Below, piece by piece: positions 2,462-14,978 of a stretch of 37,326 nt of DNA; positions within the stretch are counted from its first letter, which is position 1, and every line of letters begins with the position of its first letter. A program made the translations under genes and the position numbers. Below the pieces are notes generated by a model. The model searched no databases, was not told where the DNA came from, and was given only the letters and a program-made list of their open reading frames with translations. Source of the DNA: Flavobacteriales bacterium (GTDB lineage Bacteria > Bacteroidota > Bacteroidia > Flavobacteriales_D > Sanyastnellaceae). The stretch spans positions 1 through 37,326 of the forward strand of contig CANEVR010000022.1 of assembly GCA_947442505.1 (NCBI GenBank). The letters are read 5' to 3'.

Positions 2462-3277
2462 ATGTGTGGACGTTATATTGTAGTAACCAAGGTCAAGGAG
2501 ATTGAAAAGAAGTTTGGCGTAACCATGCCCAAGGGTTTTGACTTTTCGCCGACCACCAATTTGGCTCCAGGCAGCCCCGGTCTGGTCATTACCAATGATC
2601 ACCCCCAATCCCTCCAATTGTTTCGTTTTGGCTTTACCCCTTCATGGTCCAAAGATGGTAAGCTTTTTATCAATGCCCGTTCCGAGGGTGATCACAACCA
2701 GGAGAATCGGCGCGAGTACACGGGAGCCAAGGGTATTATAGATAAACCCATGTTTCGCCGCGCCATCCGCAGTCAACGCTGCTTGGTGGTTGCGGATGGA
2801 TTCATCGAAGGTCCAAAAGGTGTTGGATTGCAAGAACCTTATTGCGTTTATCCCAGGGCAGGCAATGGTCCCATGGCCCTGGCTGGTATTTGGGATACTT
2901 GGCAAAAGGGCGCAGAAACCATTTCGTCTTTCGCCATTCTCACCACCGCACCCAATGCGGTGCTTCAAAAAATTGGTCACCACCGTTGTCCTTTAATACT
3001 ACCTCCTGAGTACCATTCGACCTGGCTCAATGCAGATGCTCCGCTATCGGACATCACCTCCATGATGCAGCCTTGTCCAGATGGTTGGCTCAATGCCTAT
3101 CCCATTTCATCGGCTATTAAAAATCCAATGGCCAATGGAAAGGAGTTGCTGAAACCCACAGGCGAAAGGGTATTGCAGGAATTTGATTACGAGGTGTATC
3201 AGGACATTGAGATGTTTGGGATGGGAGAAACCCGAGCCCGCAAGCGACGGGATGATCAAATGTCATTGTTTGATTGA
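2462..3277 (+). CDS. SOS response-associated peptidase (SRAP / HMCES-YedK family) with a C-terminal clamp-binding motif
   Basis: A 271-residue SRAP protein. The family covalently traps abasic sites in single-stranded DNA through Cys2, here in MCGRY after removal of Met1. Other family positions are present: TNLAPG (N34), NARSE (71-75), ADGFIE (E116) and the HxRxP block HHRCPLIL (H173), in which the usual Met is Cys. The last six residues, QMSLFD (266-271), match the bacterial sliding-clamp pentapeptide QL[SD]LF, so the protein may be recruited to the replisome. It is followed after 2 bp by a DnaE2-type polymerase, which argues for joint use at damaged forks. ATG at 2462 is the only start that places Cys at position 2. 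Confidence 0.92.
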   Translation: MCGRYIVVTKVKEIEKKFGVTMPKGFDFSPTTNLAPGSPGLVITNDHPQSLQLFRFGFTPSWSKDGKLFINARSEGDHNQENRREYTGAKGIIDKPMFRRAIRSQRCLVVADGFIEGPKGVGLQEPYCVYPRAGNGPMALAGIWDTWQKGAETISSFAILTTAPNAVLQKIGHHRCPLILPPEYHSTWLNADAPLSDITSMMQPCPDGWLNAYPISSAIKNPMANGKELLKPTGERVLQEFDYEVYQDIEMFGMGETRARKRRDDQMSLFD

Positions 3278-3279
3278 TC

Positions 3280-6200
3280 ATGGTCCACGTCCATTCCTAT
3301 TTCTCTTTGCGTTACGGAACAACGGCTCCTCTGGAAGCGGCGGAGGCCTTGCGCGACGAGGGATGGGAGACCTTCCTTTTTGCAGATGTGAACAACACTT
3401 CGGCAACTTGGGATATCAAGCGTTGGTGCAAGAAAGAGAAGTTTTTGGGATTGACCGGCGTTGATTTTAAAAACAACGTCACCACTGTTTATGTAGCAGT
3501 CCCCACCAGTGAAGAAGGATTTAGAGAGGTGAACGAGTGGTTGTCTTTTCATCTGCATGATAAGAAAGATTTTCCCGAACGCGCGCCAGAATGGCAACAC
3601 GTAAAAGTTATTTATCCGCTGGATCAAGTGCGCGATTGGCCCATGGACATCATGCGTGAAAATGAATGGGTGAGCGTTGCCCCGCATGAAATCAACCGGT
3701 GGAGAATTTCGCGATGGAAAGACTTTGAGCGCTGTTTGGCATTGCCCGTTTTTAGTTTTCGAAACAAACGTGCATTCAATGCCCACCGATTGCTGCGTGC
3801 GGTGGAGAACAATGTATTGTTGAGCAAGCTCAGCACCTTGGATCACGCGACAGAGCGTGAAATTTGGAAAACCAAATCGGATATAGAGGAAGGTTATGCG
3901 GAGTATCCGTTGTTACAAAGAACAACAAATGTATTTAAGGAATGGGCAACAGCTTGGGTGATGGAAGAGTCGGTGACCATGAAGAATCAGTTGATCTATG
4001 GTCTCAATGCGGCGCAGGATGAGGATTTATTGGAGCAATTGTCTTGGGAGGGGTTACCTTATCGTTATCCTGAAGTCAATCGCGGGGATGAGGAGAGTCC
4101 AATTGTTGTTCGGATTCGAAAGGAGTTGGACATGATCAAGGAGAAATCCTTTGTGGCGTATTTTCTCATCAACTGGGACATCACGAGCTATGCGCGCAGC
4201 AATGGGTATTTTTATGTGGGTCGGGGCAGTGGAGCCAATAGCATCGTTGCGTATTTGTTGCGCATCACGGATGTTGATCCCATAGAGTTGGATTTGTATT
4301 TTGAAAGATTCATTAATCTCTATCGCCAGAATCCTCCTGATTTTGACATTGATTTTTCTTGGACGGACAGAGAGGACATGACGAAGTACATATTCTCTCG
4401 CTTTCCCAATGTGTCGTTGTTGGGTGCTTACAATACTTTTCAGTACCGCGCAGCAGTGAGGGAATTGGGAAAGGTTTTCGGATTGCCCAAAGAGGAGATC
4501 GATATTTTGGGAGATGGGAAATTTCAATTGGATCAATTGGATGAAATGCAGCGGCTCACCTTGCGCTATGCACAGGTGATTCAAGATTTCCCCAACGCAT
4601 TGGCTATTCATGCTGCAGGGATTTTGATTACCCAAAAACCCGTGTGGTGTTATACAGCAACATTTTTACCACCCAAAGGATTTGCCACTACCCATTTTGA
4701 TATGCTGGTGGCTGAGGATATTGGGATTTACAAGTTCGATATTCTCTCGCAACGCGGATTGGGAAAAATCAAAGAGTGCATGGAAATCATTGCCTACAAT
4801 CAACCGGAAAGGGCAGACTTTGACATTCATGATTTGGCGCGATTTAAAAAGGACGAGGCCGTAAAAAGTCTGATCCGTTCTGCCGATGCCATCGGATGTT
4901 TTTATGTGGAGTCGCCTGCGATGCGGATGTTATTGGGTAAGTTGCAAGTGGATGATTATTTGGGATTGGTGGCCGCAAGTTCTGTGATACGCCCCGGCGT
5001 CTCCAAAAGTGGCATGATGCGCGAGTTTATCATGCGGCAGCGCATTCCAGAGCGCAGGAAGCAAGCCAATCCGGTGTTGCTTGAATTGATGCCAGAGACT
5101 TACGGGGTGATGGTGTACCAAGAAGATGTGATCAAAGTAGCGCACTACTATGGCGGCTTGACCTTGGGAGAGGCCGATAGTTTGCGACGCGGCATGAGCG
5201 GAAAGTTTAGAGGAAGAGAAGAGTTTGATCGAGCGCGTGATGCCTTTATTGAAAAGGCTATGGCAAAGGGAAGACCATTGGAAGAAGTGGTGGAAATCTG
5301 GCGACAGATTGAAAGTTTTGCAGGATACGCTTTTGCCAAAGGGCATTCGGCTTCTTATGCGGTGGAGAGTTTTCAAAGTTTGTTTCTCAAAGCCTATTTC
5401 CCATTGGAATACATGGTGGCTACATTGAACAACGGCGGTGGTTTTTATTCGGTAGAGTTTTATGTGCATGAGGCGAGAAGGAAAGGAGCAATCATTCATC
5501 CGCCTAGCATTCAAAAGAGCAGCGCGGTGACCATCATCCAAGGTCGAGATGTATTCTTAGGATTGGGGATGATCAAGGACTTGGAGCATCCTTTGATTGA
5601 ACGTTTGCTATTGGCGAGAAAGAACAATGGTCCGTTCAAAGACTTTGAGGATTTTCTAGACCGCGTTCGCATTGGCGTTGAGCAATGTACATTGCTCATT
5701 CGCGTAGGTGCTTTTCGATTTTTAGGACAGAGCAAAAAGCAATTGTTGTGGAAGGCGCAGTTGTATTTTACGCAGCGATGGGATGTCCAAGAGCAATCGC
5801 TGTTTGGGGTGGAAAGAAAGCAATTTGATATTCCGAATTTGGTCGATCTCCCATTGGAGGATGCCTTTGATCAATTGGAATTGTTGGGTTTTCCGTTGTG
5901 CAGTCCATTTGATTTGTTGCCAACGGAGTGGAAAGGTGTTGGTGTTCCCGCCCGACGGTTACCCGAATTCTTGGGAAAGCAGGTAGTGGTGTTGGGATAT
6001 TTCATTACATGCAAGCCCACCAGAACCAGCAAAGGTGACCGCATGTACTTTGGTAATTTTATCGATGCGGAAGGAGAGTTCATCGATACCGCGCATTTTC
6101 CTGTTGTAGGAAAAGATAACATGTCTTGGCGTGGTTCGGGCATTTACCACATTCAAGGTCGCGTCATTGAGGAGATGGGTGTGTACAATATCGAAGTGGA

Positions 6201-6288
6201 TACTATGACCAAGCTAGCGTTTGAAGAAGATCCGCGTTATGCTGATCTTCGACAAGGGGAAAAGTCGAGAAAAGGAAAAAAGCACTAA
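3280..6288 (+). CDS. dnaE2: DnaE2-type DNA polymerase III alpha subunit (translesion/error-prone)
   Basis: A 1002-residue C-family polymerase, shorter than replicative DnaE (about 1160). Order: degenerate PHP domain (MVHVHSYFSLRYG, then FADVNNTSA), palm with GRGSGANS (about 314) and PDFDIDF (about 353-359) carrying the two catalytic Asp, third Asp in YKFDILSQRGL (D487), fingers and HhH region, and an OB fold near the C-terminus (VVVLGYF to IEVDTM). The PHP motif that normally reads TDH lacks its His, so proofreading metals are probably not bound; this is typical of DnaE2. EQSLFGV (838-844) sits where E. coli alpha has QADMFGV, the clamp motif, with Q changed to E. ATG 3280 is preferred over TTG 3274 because homologues begin near the HxH. 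No ImuA or ImuB partner is in the window. Confidence 0.9.
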   Translation: MVHVHSYFSLRYGTTAPLEAAEALRDEGWETFLFADVNNTSATWDIKRWCKKEKFLGLTGVDFKNNVTTVYVAVPTSEEGFREVNEWLSFHLHDKKDFPERAPEWQHVKVIYPLDQVRDWPMDIMRENEWVSVAPHEINRWRISRWKDFERCLALPVFSFRNKRAFNAHRLLRAVENNVLLSKLSTLDHATEREIWKTKSDIEEGYAEYPLLQRTTNVFKEWATAWVMEESVTMKNQLIYGLNAAQDEDLLEQLSWEGLPYRYPEVNRGDEESPIVVRIRKELDMIKEKSFVAYFLINWDITSYARSNGYFYVGRGSGANSIVAYLLRITDVDPIELDLYFERFINLYRQNPPDFDIDFSWTDREDMTKYIFSRFPNVSLLGAYNTFQYRAAVRELGKVFGLPKEEIDILGDGKFQLDQLDEMQRLTLRYAQVIQDFPNALAIHAAGILITQKPVWCYTATFLPPKGFATTHFDMLVAEDIGIYKFDILSQRGLGKIKECMEIIAYNQPERADFDIHDLARFKKDEAVKSLIRSADAIGCFYVESPAMRMLLGKLQVDDYLGLVAASSVIRPGVSKSGMMREFIMRQRIPERRKQANPVLLELMPETYGVMVYQEDVIKVAHYYGGLTLGEADSLRRGMSGKFRGREEFDRARDAFIEKAMAKGRPLEEVVEIWRQIESFAGYAFAKGHSASYAVESFQSLFLKAYFPLEYMVATLNNGGGFYSVEFYVHEARRKGAIIHPPSIQKSSAVTIIQGRDVFLGLGMIKDLEHPLIERLLLARKNNGPFKDFEDFLDRVRIGVEQCTLLIRVGAFRFLGQSKKQLLWKAQLYFTQRWDVQEQSLFGVERKQFDIPNLVDLPLEDAFDQLELLGFPLCSPFDLLPTEWKGVGVPARRLPEFLGKQVVVLGYFITCKPTRTSKGDRMYFGNFIDAEGEFIDTAHFPVVGKDNMSWRGSGIYHIQGRVIEEMGVYNIEVDTMTKLAFEEDPRYADLRQGEKSRKGKKH

Positions 6289-9213: not shown

Positions 9214-12018
9214 TTAGGGCAATACCACTTTTTGAACCAATACCTGACCGTTTTCATTGGTGGCTTGGATCAAGTAAACACCTTTGGCTAAACCATCCGT
9301 ATCCATCTCCCATTGTGGGTTTGATCCACTCCAGGTTTGGATGGTCTTTCCAAGTGCATCCATCACCATTACTTGTGTCAAGGATTGACCTGAATTGCGC
9401 ACCACCATTTGTTGACGACTCAAAAGTACTTCTAGCTTAGATACGTCACCAGCCAATGCAGCAGCGTTGATGCAGCCACCTTCTGGGCAATAAGTCAAAG
9501 AGCCAATCTGTCCGTGCATTTCGCCTTGAACTGGAATATTGAATCTGGTATTTTCAAAGCATTGAACTACTTCACCAGCGTGAACTATGTTCCAAGCATT
9601 TCCGTCATGGCTGTATTGCATGGTGGGCAATCCAACAGTGAGATACCATTCTCCTTCTGCAAAACGTTTTACCAATAGAGAAGCCCATTCTTGGCCTTCT
9701 GCCATCACATCCAATTGAACCTGCATGGTCACATTTTGATTGGGATGAATGGAGTTGGCCACAAGTACTTGTTGGTCTTGTGTGACAAAAGAAACATTGG
9801 CGTGTGAGCGATCTGTATCGAACATGTCAGCAATGTCAAGTCCTTCGTCGTATCCTTCTTGCGCATCTGGATTGAGGATAACGTTAGATTGATCCTTGAA
9901 TCTTTCGTCTTGCGTGCTTAACTCTAGCGCAAACACAGGGAAGCCGCCCTCACTTCTTTCAAAAGCTTTGGGAGAACATCTGCTCACCTTGGCTGACTCT
10001 GGGAAGTTTACGATCTGCCCGCCAGAAGTGGCAATGACAAAAAAGCTTTGGCTGTGCGGGATGTACTTGCCAATACCATCGGGATAACCAGAAGATGTAT
10101 TGAAAGAACCATCATTGTTGTTGTAATATAAGTAGTTGGAACTTTGGTAATCGTAAACAAAGTAAGCACCGATGTTGGAGCTGTTGTTCTCCACTACGCT
10201 CCAATCTATTTCAGATGGGAAAGGATTGGAAATTAAATTTCTTCCATAAGACTCAACAGTACCACTCGCTGTGTAGGTCAAAGAAGCTGTTCTTGTTCCT
10301 TTGCCAAAGTAACCAGTCGGGTTGATGGTTCTGGCAGATGAATTGGAGAACACATTGTAACCGAGCATGGGATTTAATTGACCAGTGGTTGGGTTGACAA
10401 CCGTAAAGCCAAAATTGGAAACCCCAGAAAGCGTTTCATTGTACCACTTGATGCTATTGGAAGTCATGGAAAGTGCGGGGTAACTGATATTATTGACAGT
10501 TTTTGCTCCCCAAGCCACTGCGGGAGTTAATCTTGTACTTAGCGCGCTATTGGCGTACAAAGGGCATGACAAAAACATCCAATTACTGGCTGAATTGGAA
10601 GGGATGTAGCGCTGCAGTGTAACAGGTCCAGATACATCCGCACCACTTGCTATGGTATGGATGGAACCAGAGCAAGTTGCATTAGAAAGCAACGACAAAC
10701 TTCCGCCTGTACCATCAGTGGTGAGCGTTCCAGCATTTGGATAAACTGCATTGGAAACATAAACCGGAGCATTTAAGGTAACACCAGCACTGTTATCGAT
10801 GGTCAAGTCCATGAATTGGGTTCCTGCTGTTCCACCAATGGTTTGGGCTGATGCCCCAGACATGATGACTTCACATCCTTCAGAACAACAACTGCTACCG
10901 TATTTGGGGACAAAGGAGGTTGTTGCGTTGTTGTTGACCCAATTCCCACTCAAAGTTAGGCTCTGTGCTGCACCGTTGGAAGTCAAACTTCCACCAGATG
11001 AAAGGGTGACATCGGATAAGTTGTAAGAACCATCGATGGTGATAGCATGCTTCACAATAATGTCCGTATTGATGTTGAATGAAGGAGTAACTGCGGCACC
11101 ACCATCTGTCAATGACCAGACTGAACCACTGCTCATGTTACCTGATGCAATACTGTAATAAGTTGCAGCGCTTGAAGTCTGCGAAATACTCAAATCATCA
11201 AAAGAAAAATTGTTGTAAACAGAATTGGCTACTGGTGTTCCTGATGATGTGGTGTACAAAGAAGTTAATCCAACATAGCTCATGTTGGAATACGTGTTGT
11301 CCGTTAAGGCCGTACTGGTGGCATCGGTTGCACCGTTGCCATCAAAGTCAACTTCAACTGTCCATGATCCAGTGGCATTGCGAACAACAGTAATGCCAAC
11401 AGCGTTAGCTATGCTTTGTGCTCCGTAGCCCCATGCTGAAGTAGATGTCCAAGATATGGTATTGGGACCAGTAGTAGAATTGATACCACCCGTGATTTCA
11501 GTCAAACGTGTTGCAACACCTGCGTCAACTCTCATCAATTGCAATTTGCGTGTATTGTTGGGTGTTGTACCATAAGGATTGATACCAATGGCGTATCCAG
11601 AAAATTTCTCAGAGGGTGCACCATAGGCCACATTTCCCGTTGAGCTGATAAATGGTGTAGCAACATCTGATGCCAATACAACCCAAAATTTCGAACCTGC
11701 TCCAACACTTTTTGCAAACGTTTTCACTTTAAAACTCCATGTGGTGTTTACTCCGGAAATATTGCTCATACTGCCACTAACAGCAGCTGAAGCACAAGTG
11801 TACACGGAACTTCCTGAAGTATATCCATTGTTATTGTGTCTAATGGATCCAGCACCGTTGATGGGGTTGGATGTGTCATGTGCCCACTGGCTGTTGGTGG
11901 TCCACCCTGAAGGAATTCCACTGTTGAAATCCGCGGTCATCTGAGAGGCCGAATCCAAAGTGGAAGTGATCATAAAGGTGGCAATGATCAATTGCAACAG
12001 GGGTAAATTTCTAGTCAT
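9214..12018 (-). CDS. T9SS type A sorting domain-containing secreted protein
   Basis: 934 residues from ATG at 12018, chosen because MTRNLPLLQLIIATFMITSTLDSASQ is a clean signal peptide; an upstream in-frame ATG would add 16 residues ahead of it. The N-terminal region (TADFNSGIPSGWTTNSQWAHD to FSFDDLSI, about 25-280) looks like a jelly-roll or cleaved-adhesin-like domain. The middle is a Ser/Thr/Asn-rich beta region. The C-terminus (VMDALGKTIQTW, GLAKGVYLIQ, KVVLP) is a type A sorting domain, so the protein should be exported by type IX secretion. No catalytic motif was recognised; adhesion is a guess from composition. It stands alone between a divergent ispD and its own terminator. Confidence 0.85.
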   Translation of the reverse strand: MTRNLPLLQLIIATFMITSTLDSASQMTADFNSGIPSGWTTNSQWAHDTSNPINGAGSIRHNNNGYTSGSSVYTCASAAVSGSMSNISGVNTTWSFKVKTFAKSVGAGSKFWVVLASDVATPFISSTGNVAYGAPSEKFSGYAIGINPYGTTPNNTRKLQLMRVDAGVATRLTEITGGINSTTGPNTISWTSTSAWGYGAQSIANAVGITVVRNATGSWTVEVDFDGNGATDATSTALTDNTYSNMSYVGLTSLYTTSSGTPVANSVYNNFSFDDLSISQTSSAATYYSIASGNMSSGSVWSLTDGGAAVTPSFNINTDIIVKHAITIDGSYNLSDVTLSSGGSLTSNGAAQSLTLSGNWVNNNATTSFVPKYGSSCCSEGCEVIMSGASAQTIGGTAGTQFMDLTIDNSAGVTLNAPVYVSNAVYPNAGTLTTDGTGGSLSLLSNATCSGSIHTIASGADVSGPVTLQRYIPSNSASNWMFLSCPLYANSALSTRLTPAVAWGAKTVNNISYPALSMTSNSIKWYNETLSGVSNFGFTVVNPTTGQLNPMLGYNVFSNSSARTINPTGYFGKGTRTASLTYTASGTVESYGRNLISNPFPSEIDWSVVENNSSNIGAYFVYDYQSSNYLYYNNNDGSFNTSSGYPDGIGKYIPHSQSFFVIATSGGQIVNFPESAKVSRCSPKAFERSEGGFPVFALELSTQDERFKDQSNVILNPDAQEGYDEGLDIADMFDTDRSHANVSFVTQDQQVLVANSIHPNQNVTMQVQLDVMAEGQEWASLLVKRFAEGEWYLTVGLPTMQYSHDGNAWNIVHAGEVVQCFENTRFNIPVQGEMHGQIGSLTYCPEGGCINAAALAGDVSKLEVLLSRQQMVVRNSGQSLTQVMVMDALGKTIQTWSGSNPQWEMDTDGLAKGVYLIQATNENGQVLVQKVVLP

Positions 12019-12117
12019 GCTAAAATCTTTTGCCGAATTTACGAAGAAATGAACAAAAGGTTGCATTTTTTGCGGTTACTGATTTATGAATAAGTCTTTT
12101 ATGCTTTCATTTGCACA

Positions 12118-12792
12118 GTGATTACAGCAAAAAAATGGGCCGTTATTGTGGCCGCAGGGAGGGGAAGCCGTTTTGGCAGTGATGTCCCCAAACAATTCGT
12201 AATGCTCAACAACAAGCCTGTTCTTTTTTACAGCCTGGATGTCTTTTCCAAGTTGAATTATCAATTGATAGTGGTGATTCATCCAGATGATCAGTTGTAT
12301 TATACAGCACTATCGGAAACGCATCTATTCCCTGATCACCAAATCGCGTTGGGTGGAGCGGAGCGTTTTCACTCCGTTCAGAATGCACTTGCGCTTATTC
12401 CGGAAACAGCAGAGTTGGTGCTTGTCCATGATGCGGCACGTCCCAACATTGACACGACATTCATCCAAAGATTGGAGGGAGAGGTTGCGACCTATGGTAA
12501 TGCAATTCCTGCTTTGCCCGTCAGCGATAGTTTAAGAATGAAGATGGGAGATCATTGGCGCGCTGTTCACCGAGATGACTACCGCATCATCCAAACACCT
12601 CAGTTTTTTAATGCTTTTGCACTCAAGAAGGCATACCAGCAGGATTATTCAACTTCATTTACGGACGATGCTTCTGTTCTGGAAGCCGATGGAAATGAGA
12701 TTCACTTGGTAGTTGGGAAAAATGGAAACATCAAAATCACCCATGCGGAGGATTTGAAATGGATGTCTTTTTTAATGTCAAATAAAGGATAA
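12118..12792 (+). CDS. ispD: 2-C-methyl-D-erythritol 4-phosphate cytidylyltransferase
   Basis: 224 residues. It joins CTP and MEP to give CDP-methylerythritol, the third step of the MEP isoprenoid pathway. The nucleotide-binding loop VAAGRGSRFGSDVPKQF (11-27), VHDAARP and the IIQTPQFF block are all present. The start is GTG at 12118, because no in-frame ATG lies near the N-terminus. The start is preceded by TTCATTTGCACA, close to TAnnTTTG, so the message may be leaderless with a GTG start. It overlaps the next gene by 1 bp (TAATG). The gene dxs of the same pathway lies 11 kb downstream. Confidence 0.95.
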   Translation: MITAKKWAVIVAAGRGSRFGSDVPKQFVMLNNKPVLFYSLDVFSKLNYQLIVVIHPDDQLYYTALSETHLFPDHQIALGGAERFHSVQNALALIPETAELVLVHDAARPNIDTTFIQRLEGEVATYGNAIPALPVSDSLRMKMGDHWRAVHRDDYRIIQTPQFFNAFALKKAYQQDYSTSFTDDASVLEADGNEIHLVVGKNGNIKITHAEDLKWMSFLMSNKG

Positions 12793-14978
12793 TGGTAAAA
12801 ATTAAAATGTACGGATGCATCGCGGTTCTCTCAATTTGCGCGATTTTAGCACCGGAAAAATTATTGAGTCAAAAAAAAATAAAAATGAGCGTACCAAAAC
12901 CAGCAAAGAAAGACGTTGTATTGGAATACAAAGTGGGTAATGAAGTGAGAGATACACGAATTGATTCCTACTATTGGATGCGCTTGACGGATGAGCAAAA
13001 GGAAGCTGCTCAGCCCGATGCCCAAACCCAAGAAGTGTTGGAATATTTGCATGCTGAAAATGCGTATACAAAATCCATCATGTCTCCCACAGAGACGCTG
13101 CAAGAGAAGCTATTTGCAGAAATGAAAGGGAGAATCAAAGAGACAGATCAAAGCGTCCCCACCAAGGACAATGGCTATTGGTATTACACGCGATATGAGC
13201 AAGGAAAAGACTATGCTTTTTATTGCAGAAAGTTGGGCAGTATGGAAACTGGCAGCGAAGAGGTTTTGATTGACGGTCCAGCTTTGGCGGAGGGAAAAAG
13301 TTATTGGGCATTGGGAGGCATGACCATCAGTGAAGACAATCAATGGATGGCATACGGCGTGGATGAGATCAGCAGAAGGGTATACCAAGTATATTTTAAA
13401 AACTTGGCCACAGGTGAAGTTATTGCAGATAAGTTGGAGGGAACCACAGGACGCGCAACATGGGCGTCGGACAATAAAACAGTTTTTTATTCCAAAAGAG
13501 ATCCCCAGACTTTAAGAGAGTTTCAAATCTGGAGACACATTGTAGGAACCAATCAATCAGAGGATGTTTTGGTCTTTGAAGAGGTGGATGAAACCTATTC
13601 TTGTTTTGTATTTAAAACCAAAAGTGAGCAGTTCATTATCATCGGCAGTAGCCAGACATTGTCTGCCGAGTACAGGGTGTTAGAGGCCAAGAATCCAAAC
13701 GGGACTTTCAGGATTATTCATCCACGTGAGAAGGAGTTGGAATATGCCGTAGATCATTTTGAAGATTCATTTTACATCACCACCAACTGGGATGCAAAGA
13801 ATTTTAGATTGATGAAATGTCCGCTGGACAAGACTTCCAAGGAGAATTGGACAGAGGTCATCGCACACCGGTCAGACGTGCTGTTGGAGGGCGTGGAAAT
13901 GTTCAAAGAGTACATGGTCATTGACGAACGCCAGAATGGTTTGACCCAATTGCGTATCAAGCGTTGGGACGGATCATTGGAGTATTATATGCCCTTTCAA
14001 GATGCTGCTTATTCAGCAGGTGTTGGTGCCAATCCCGATTTCAATACAGAAATCCTGCGATATGGTTATTCATCGATGGTAACCCCGTCCAGTACTTTTG
14101 ATTTCAATATGCGAACCAAAGAGCAGGTGCTGCTGAAGCAACAAGAAGTTGTAGGAGGATACAACGCAGCAGATTACCATTGTGAGCGATTGATGGTGCC
14201 AGTGACGGATGGAACTTTGGTTCCGGTTTCATTGGTTTACAAAAAAGGTTTCGAAAGAAATGGCCAAGCGCCTTTGTTGCTTTATGCATACGGCAGCTAT
14301 GGATACAGCATGGATGCCGCATTCAGCTCTGGAAGATTGTCTTTGTTGGATAGAGGATTTGTTTATGCCATGGCCCACATCCGTGGTGGACAAGAGATGG
14401 GTCGTGAGTGGTATGAGAATGGTAAATTGTTGAAGAAGAAAAATACGTTCACTGATTTCATTGATTGCGGACAGCATTTGGTTAATCAGAAATATACCAG
14501 TGCAGATAAATTGTTTGCCATGGGCGGAAGTGCAGGTGGACTGCTGATGGGCGCTGTAGCCAACATGGCTCCTTCATTATTCAAAGGAATCATTTCCGCT
14601 GTTCCTTTTGTGGATGTGGTGACCACCATGTTGGATGAAACGATCCCATTGACCACTTTTGAATACGACGAATGGGGGAATCCAAACGATCCCATTTACT
14701 ACGATTACATGAAGTCCTATTCCCCAATTGACAATATCGAGCGCAAAGATTATCCCAATGTTTTGGTCACTACTGGTTATTGGGACAGTCAGGTTCAGTA
14801 TTGGGAGCCTGCCAAGTATGTAGCCAAATTGAGAGAGTACAAAACCAATGATAACCAGTTGTTGTTTCACATCAACATGGATGCGGGACATGGGGGTAAA
14901 TCAGGTCGTTTCGAAGCTTTGAAAGAGGTGGCATTGGAATATGCCTTTATGATGCAATTGTTAGGAATTAAAGATTGA
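12792..14978 (+). CDS. S9 family serine oligopeptidase, oligopeptidase B-like, probably exported
   Basis: 728 residues. An N-terminal hydrophobic segment (about 6-24) looks like a signal peptide. A seven-bladed propeller of the prolyl-oligopeptidase type follows (about 75-450), then an alpha/beta hydrolase domain. The catalytic triad is visible: S580 in GGSAGG, D665 in YWDSQVQYWEPAKY and H700 in DAGHGGKSGR. The family cleaves short peptides after basic residues. In many bacteria oligopeptidase B is cytosolic; the leader here suggests a periplasmic or envelope form, as often seen in Bacteroidota. It is translationally coupled to ispD (TAATG), with no obvious functional link. Confidence 0.9.
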   Translation: MVKIKMYGCIAVLSICAILAPEKLLSQKKIKMSVPKPAKKDVVLEYKVGNEVRDTRIDSYYWMRLTDEQKEAAQPDAQTQEVLEYLHAENAYTKSIMSPTETLQEKLFAEMKGRIKETDQSVPTKDNGYWYYTRYEQGKDYAFYCRKLGSMETGSEEVLIDGPALAEGKSYWALGGMTISEDNQWMAYGVDEISRRVYQVYFKNLATGEVIADKLEGTTGRATWASDNKTVFYSKRDPQTLREFQIWRHIVGTNQSEDVLVFEEVDETYSCFVFKTKSEQFIIIGSSQTLSAEYRVLEAKNPNGTFRIIHPREKELEYAVDHFEDSFYITTNWDAKNFRLMKCPLDKTSKENWTEVIAHRSDVLLEGVEMFKEYMVIDERQNGLTQLRIKRWDGSLEYYMPFQDAAYSAGVGANPDFNTEILRYGYSSMVTPSSTFDFNMRTKEQVLLKQQEVVGGYNAADYHCERLMVPVTDGTLVPVSLVYKKGFERNGQAPLLLYAYGSYGYSMDAAFSSGRLSLLDRGFVYAMAHIRGGQEMGREWYENGKLLKKKNTFTDFIDCGQHLVNQKYTSADKLFAMGGSAGGLLMGAVANMAPSLFKGIISAVPFVDVVTTMLDETIPLTTFEYDEWGNPNDPIYYDYMKSYSPIDNIERKDYPNVLVTTGYWDSQVQYWEPAKYVAKLREYKTNDNQLLFHINMDAGHGGKSGRFEALKEVALEYAFMMQLLGIKD

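Follow-up and report, generated by a model that had tools for sequence, protein, structure and literature searches.

A predicted sliding-clamp-binding tail on an SRAP protein encoded beside SOS polymerases in Bacteroidota

The SRAP protein encoded near the start of a genomic fragment from a Flavobacteriales bacterium ends in a close match to the bacterial beta-clamp-binding pentapeptide, and we think it probable that this tail tethers the protein to the sliding clamp, beside SOS polymerases whose genes adjoin that of SRAP in relatives. The finding reaches beyond the window (the whole analyzed stretch of DNA, 37,326 nucleotides from a genome of 2.6 Mb in 106 contigs): the tail is a trait of many relatives, other members of the same gene cassette carry clamp motifs of their own, and SRAP proteins of haloarchaea offer a parallel.

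The SRAP gene (2462..3277, plus strand) encodes a predicted abasic-site crosslinking protein of the HMCES/YedK type with 271 amino acids that matches Pfam PF02586 with 160.3 bits (cut-off 27.1; E 6.3e-47). An AlphaFold model based on an alignment of 60 sequences reached a mean pLDDT of 88.5 and matched structures of HMCES and YedK with Foldseek E-values of 2.3e-15 to 6.7e-13. With these proteins, it has in common the fold and the catalytic cysteine, asparagine, glutamate, and histidine. Cys2, the crosslinking residue (YedK C2; 2465..2467), is invariant in 60 SRAPs, and so are, in the alignment of 60 sequences, Asn71 (YedK N75; 2672..2674), Glu116 (YedK E105; 2807..2809), and His173 (YedK H160; 2978..2980), all assigned by alignment to YedK and all on the plus strand. 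The conserved residues and the fold suggest a catalytically intact enzyme in which Cys2 would form a thiazolidine crosslink with abasic sites in single-stranded DNA. Identity to 14 aligned SRAPs from a wider sample of the phylum ranges from 29% to 36%. In one related genome (G003), two contigs (C110 and C150) carry SRAP copies that are 100% and 88% identical to that of the window, and this genome may be a mixed assembly.

Between the enzyme domain and the tail lies the conserved motif FGMGE (residues 252-256; 3215..3229, plus strand; invariant in 13 aligned sequences), and the C-terminus then reads ...ARKRRDDQMSLFD with QMSLFD as its last residues. The pentapeptide QMSLF (residues 266-270; 3257..3271, plus strand), followed by one Asp and a TGA stop, closely matches the beta-clamp consensus QL[S/D]LF, of which positions 1, 4, and 5 weigh most according to the available text of PMC3919608. 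The terminal motif described in the original prediction is exact in the sequence and confirmed by the comparison with relatives detailed below; of the coordinates given for it, only the start at 3247 is off, since it does not fall on a codon boundary. That the tail is exposed, as had also been proposed, agrees with the model, in which block means of pLDDT amount to 38-56 after residue 240, so that residues 241-271 (3182..3274, plus strand) form a predicted flexible and accessible segment, with a low-confidence helix at residues 258-265; the linker in relatives varies in length. By contrast, E. coli YedK does not extend beyond the domain, and its alignment revealed no QxxLF tail. The clamp-binding peptides of Pol IV, PolC, DnaE, and ImuB resemble the SRAP tail in having Gln at position 1, Leu-Phe at positions 4 and 5, and a flexible segment around them, but they sit on polymerases or an adaptor, whereas the peptide predicted here would sit on a DNA-protein crosslinking enzyme. 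Clamp binding, as predicted from the tail, is a well-supported interpretation.

Relatives were collected by their score against the window protein, with the top 30 of 49 matches from one collection and the top 80 of 512 from another, and therefore represent close relatives, not a random sample. From 200 SRAP ORFs, two that were cut and one that was short were removed, which left 108 relatives (the window's copy included) and 89 proteins of the phylum sample; the 108 contain some genomes twice, once from each collection, and 87 of them are distinct. Among these 87, 63 end in QxxLF plus zero to five further residues, with QGSLF as a frequent form and QLDLF, QLSLF, QQSLF, QGALFS, QLPLFS, and QRRLFED as others. 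The original prediction hinged on close orthologues sharing the motif, and they do: all six same-genus SRAPs with a complete C-terminus (L002, L004, L005, L006, L007, and L040) end in Q[ML]SLF(D), a seventh copy (L008) stopping before its C-terminus. The linker from GMG to the Gln spans 5 to 36 residues in the 60 of 63 motif-bearing SRAPs where it could be measured. At less than 70% identity, terminal QxxLF occurs in 22 of 35 relatives; when the last 25 residues were shuffled 2000 times, the count averaged 0.11 and never exceeded 2.

Single cases of such an ending do occur by chance. Among neighboring ORFs used as controls, 9 of 583 end in QxxLF, but 8 of these 9 are PA0069-type radical SAM proteins from the same neighborhoods, so that the background is 1 in 575 ordinary ORFs. 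Similarly, the DNA pattern for terminal QxxLF codons is common in the window's own genome (159 + 147 sites versus 120 + 113 for the reversed control), which makes any single site weak evidence; among 60 of these 306 sites that were examined, with the window as a positive control from which the SRAP gene was recovered, 49 loci had a match at a true stop, and the longest frame closed in this way had 58 codons for amino acids. It is the recurrence of the motif across divergent relatives with changing linkers, together with the shuffle and control tests, that leaves almost no room for a fortuitous resemblance to the motif in an inherited tail of six residues. A different partner, e.g., if the tail mimicked that of SSB or served as a C-terminal degradation tag, would be in line with the 33 of 63 tails that end exactly at the Phe. 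However, one to five residues follow in the other 30, so a free carboxylate on the Phe is unnecessary, and 30 of 32 LF tails of relatives at less than 80% identity retain Gln at position 1, a pattern that the clamp motif accounts for and an SSB-tail mimic or degradation tag does not. We therefore regard such a partner as very improbable.

The clamp tail of SRAP is not universal. The motif is absent from 24 of the 87 distinct relatives, which include tail-less SRAPs (e.g., L046, L048, L075, L084, L106, L109, and L115), and degenerate NEGPTLFD-like tails are found in L104, L105, L107, and L111; some of these tail-less or degenerate SRAPs adjoin dnaE2. In the phylum sample, composed of the 30 best-scoring loci and 60 regions selected manually along the list of matches and hence not random, only 6 of 89 SRAPs show the full motif (with tails such as AEQVSLFG, NEQQSLF, SGQGSLF, and NKQSTLF) and 39 a terminal LF. 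At less than 70% identity, 30 of 74 proteins of the sample still have this LF, whereas shuffling gave 2.06 on average and 8 at most. The plasmid and phage collections yielded 11 bacterial or phage SRAPs for inspection, two of Hymenobacter and one of Prosthecochloris among them, and not one has a QxxLF tail; they belong to 12 examined records (the twelfth haloarchaeal) from collections in which 1507, 34, and 343 records had matches. On a tree of the SRAP domain without its tail, built by a quick method with long branches flagged and limited to 84 proteins after exclusion of identical domains and most entries of one collection, the motif changed at least 10 times, suggesting that the tail was repeatedly lost or gained. 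We note that SRAPs with no dnaE2 in the examined locus (L049, L054, L059, L083, L089, and L092) carry QRRLF(E/D)D directly after a basic stretch, which is either a variant or a degenerate form of the tail.

Two bases downstream of the SRAP stop codon begins the gene of a DnaE2-like C-family DNA polymerase (3280..6288, plus strand; 1002 amino acids; Pfam DNA_pol3_alpha, finger, and HHH_6). This second and shorter DnaE of the genome is likely a translesion polymerase, as the original prediction had it for the next gene, and appears to be of the kind named DnaE2B in PMC12926913. Of 61 loci in which the SRAP gene is flanked by 1.5 kb or more on each side, 36 have dinB as the gene immediately before it and 45 have dnaE2 as the one immediately after it; 33 have both. 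A gene for a LexA-like HTH-S24 protein is present somewhere in 42 of 80 genome-contig loci, as judged by tblastn matches of at least 120 amino acids at E 1e-8 to the protein of L058, several of them weak, on the opposite strand, or at a distance of a few kb; a radical SAM gene is present in 8 of the 80. At locus L058 of the cultured Phaeocystidibacter luteus LMG 25704, where the SRAP tail is QQSLF, all of these genes follow each other on one strand in the order LexA-like, dinB, SRAP, dnaE2, and radical SAM. In the genome of the window, SRAP and dnaE2 are paired and dinB is found on another contig, and a radical SAM partner was not found in a search that lacked a positive control genome and is accordingly weak. 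Upstream of the SRAP gene, the palindrome GTAGGGGCGWATNNNNATWCGCCC occurs at 1826-1849 within an ORF of 670 amino acids and at 2025-2048 at the stop of this ORF; with 14 matches in the genome (two of them overlapping at one site) and none for the reversed control, it looks like a REP-type element.

The tail does not strictly follow the presence of dnaE2. With dnaE2 present, 38 SRAPs of the 61 loci carry the motif and 12 do not; with dnaE2 absent, 7 carry it and 4 do not. We therefore rejected a one-to-one link between loss of the tail and absence of dnaE2, given that 12 of 50 dnaE2 loci are tail-less and 7 of 11 loci without dnaE2 are tailed, and the 12 motif-less SRAPs beside dnaE2 imply that the tail is not essential to the cassette.

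Other proteins of these loci carry clamp motifs as well. DinB shows QxxLF in 40 of 41 cases and QMNMF in the remaining one, and the DinB of the window's own genome has QMNLFD, which is near-identical to QMSLFD of its SRAP. The available part of PMC12926913 describes QxxLF-like clamp motifs in every one of its groups of Y-family polymerases except one. The PA0069-like radical SAM proteins end in QxxLF in all eight cases (L058 at 11835-12911 as well as L046, L047, L052, L090, L094, L115, and L118), even where the neighboring SRAP is tail-less (L046, L094, and L115); the name derives from NCBIfam for the copy of L058 and from similarity to this copy for the other seven. In DnaE2, a weak internal clamp-motif site (EQSLF in the window, residues 838-842; 5791..5805, plus strand) has retained LF or MF in all 41 aligned proteins but Gln at position 1 in only 9, and the notion that DnaE2 lacks a clamp site was therefore dropped. 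The longer DnaE of the genome (1431 amino acids; L036, 1507-5802) has a weak clamp site, MATLF, and by eye an N-terminal extension resembling a fused proofreading exonuclease, as known for some Bacteroidetes from the accessible text of PMC3919608.

The clamp of the same organism, a DnaN of 373 amino acids per chain, appears compatible with peptide binding when its sequence is compared to that of E. coli DnaN. At eight positions that we take to be the core of the peptide pocket, T172, L177, P242, V247, and M362 are identical and the remaining three are replaced by similar residues (L155 by Met, G174 by Ala, and V360 by Leu); over 25 positions of the pocket region, 12 are identical and 13 differ.

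The poor conservation of Gln at the DnaE2 site bears on a different role of SRAP. ImuB is thought to supply the clamp contact for DnaE2A, and SRAP might likewise be a subunit of a DnaE2-DinB mutasome whose tail mainly provides the clamp contact that DnaE2 lacks, with crosslinking as a secondary function. Indeed, 33 of 61 loci have the SRAP gene flanked by dinB and dnaE2, and the window's genome has a single Y-family gene and hence no separate ImuB. In the available text of PMC12926913, moreover, DnaE2B genomes are described as lacking ImuA and ImuB, and SRAP-like proteins are named as putative subunits that bind PolY in other, UmuC-like systems. Yet all 41 DinB proteins from these loci already bring a clamp motif of their own, the module is given as DnaE2B-PolY-RecA without SRAP in the same portion of that paper, and the six SRAPs with no dnaE2 in the examined locus still end in QRRLF; on balance, we consider a primary role as mutasome subunit unlikely.

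The resemblance between SRAP and DinB peptides may also point to competition, in which SRAP on the clamp would block the access of DinB and DnaE2 to abasic sites, with less mutagenesis as a result. HMCES inhibits mutagenic translesion synthesis, as reported in the accessible part of PMC9436759, and the near-identity of QMSLFD and QMNLFD in the window's genome would fit such an arrangement. An inhibitor that is co-expressed with its own targets would need explaining, however, and we find this role of the tail doubtful compared to the tethering of an abasic-site crosslinking enzyme.

Comparable gene sets have been described before. Neighborhoods of SRAP with DinB, DnaE2, and LexA, with a SplB-like radical SAM protein among the repair systems named, were reported by Aravind et al. 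in 2013 (PMC3765255). They comprise the same partners as here, but neither a clamp nor PCNA comes up in the available text: the latter term has no occurrence and the lone "clamp" is the name of an author. The Bacteroidetes module DnaE2B-PolY-RecA (PMC12926913) and the PolY2-DnaE2 pair (PMC6511836) unite dinB and dnaE2 in one cassette, as seen in the relatives studied here. SRAP is absent from both descriptions as far as their available texts go, whereas in these relatives a clamp-tailed SRAP lies between dinB and dnaE2. At the level of titles and the beginnings of abstracts, we found no report of a clamp motif in bacterial or archaeal SRAP proteins among the matches listed by a search that leaves most subscription journals outside its coverage.

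Outside bacteria, the same principle seems to be realized with other clamps. The original prediction drew a parallel to human HMCES and its PCNA-binding motif near the C-terminus; the tail of the window SRAP instead fits the bacterial clamp. The SRAPs of haloarchaeal plasmids (10 of 59 records, L215 and L222-L230, viewed over about the last 20 residues) show QxxLxxF near their end in nine cases (QSGLGEF, QSGLDEFF, and similar) and QTDFEEF, i.e., QxxFxxF, in the tenth. The PCNA-binding motif of haloarchaea is QxxLxxFx according to PMC7776575, the available text of which does not mention SRAP. The ten are relatives of each other, with 61-76% identity to the query for those listed, and thus count as one lineage rather than ten events, but as judged from their sequences, their tails are an independent version of the same clamp logic.

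How the tethering that we favor might work follows from these features. The QMSLF peptide of the flexible tail would dock in the hydrophobic pocket of DnaN and the tether would hold SRAP at clamps that stay behind on gaps and stalled forks. Single-stranded abasic sites arise there, and the enzyme would be nearby when they do. In relatives, the neighboring genes encode the translesion polymerases DinB and DnaE2, which would share the clamp with SRAP; because these would use the same pocket, one clamp could hold shielding and bypass enzymes in exchange, with abasic sites being either covalently shielded or bypassed. More tentatively, clamp tethering of SRAP may recur in three domains of life with a peptide that suits the clamp of each (QxxLF in Bacteroidota, QxxLxxF in haloarchaea, and the PCNA contact of HMCES), and the SOS cassette of Bacteroidota may be a clamp tool-belt, with strong peptides on DinB, SRAP, and the radical SAM protein and a weak one on DnaE2, in which the clamp decides between shielding and error-prone bypass; we see this wider picture as a serious possibility that falls a little short of probable.

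If true, SRAP would join the DnaE2B mutasome of Bacteroidetes, which is described without it in the available part of PMC12926913. SRAP genes have long been known beside those of SOS polymerases with no physical reason at hand, and the clamp peptide offers one. The haloarchaeal parallel, which uses the clamp-partner motif of its own domain, suggests that clamp-tethered shields of abasic sites may have been selected repeatedly.
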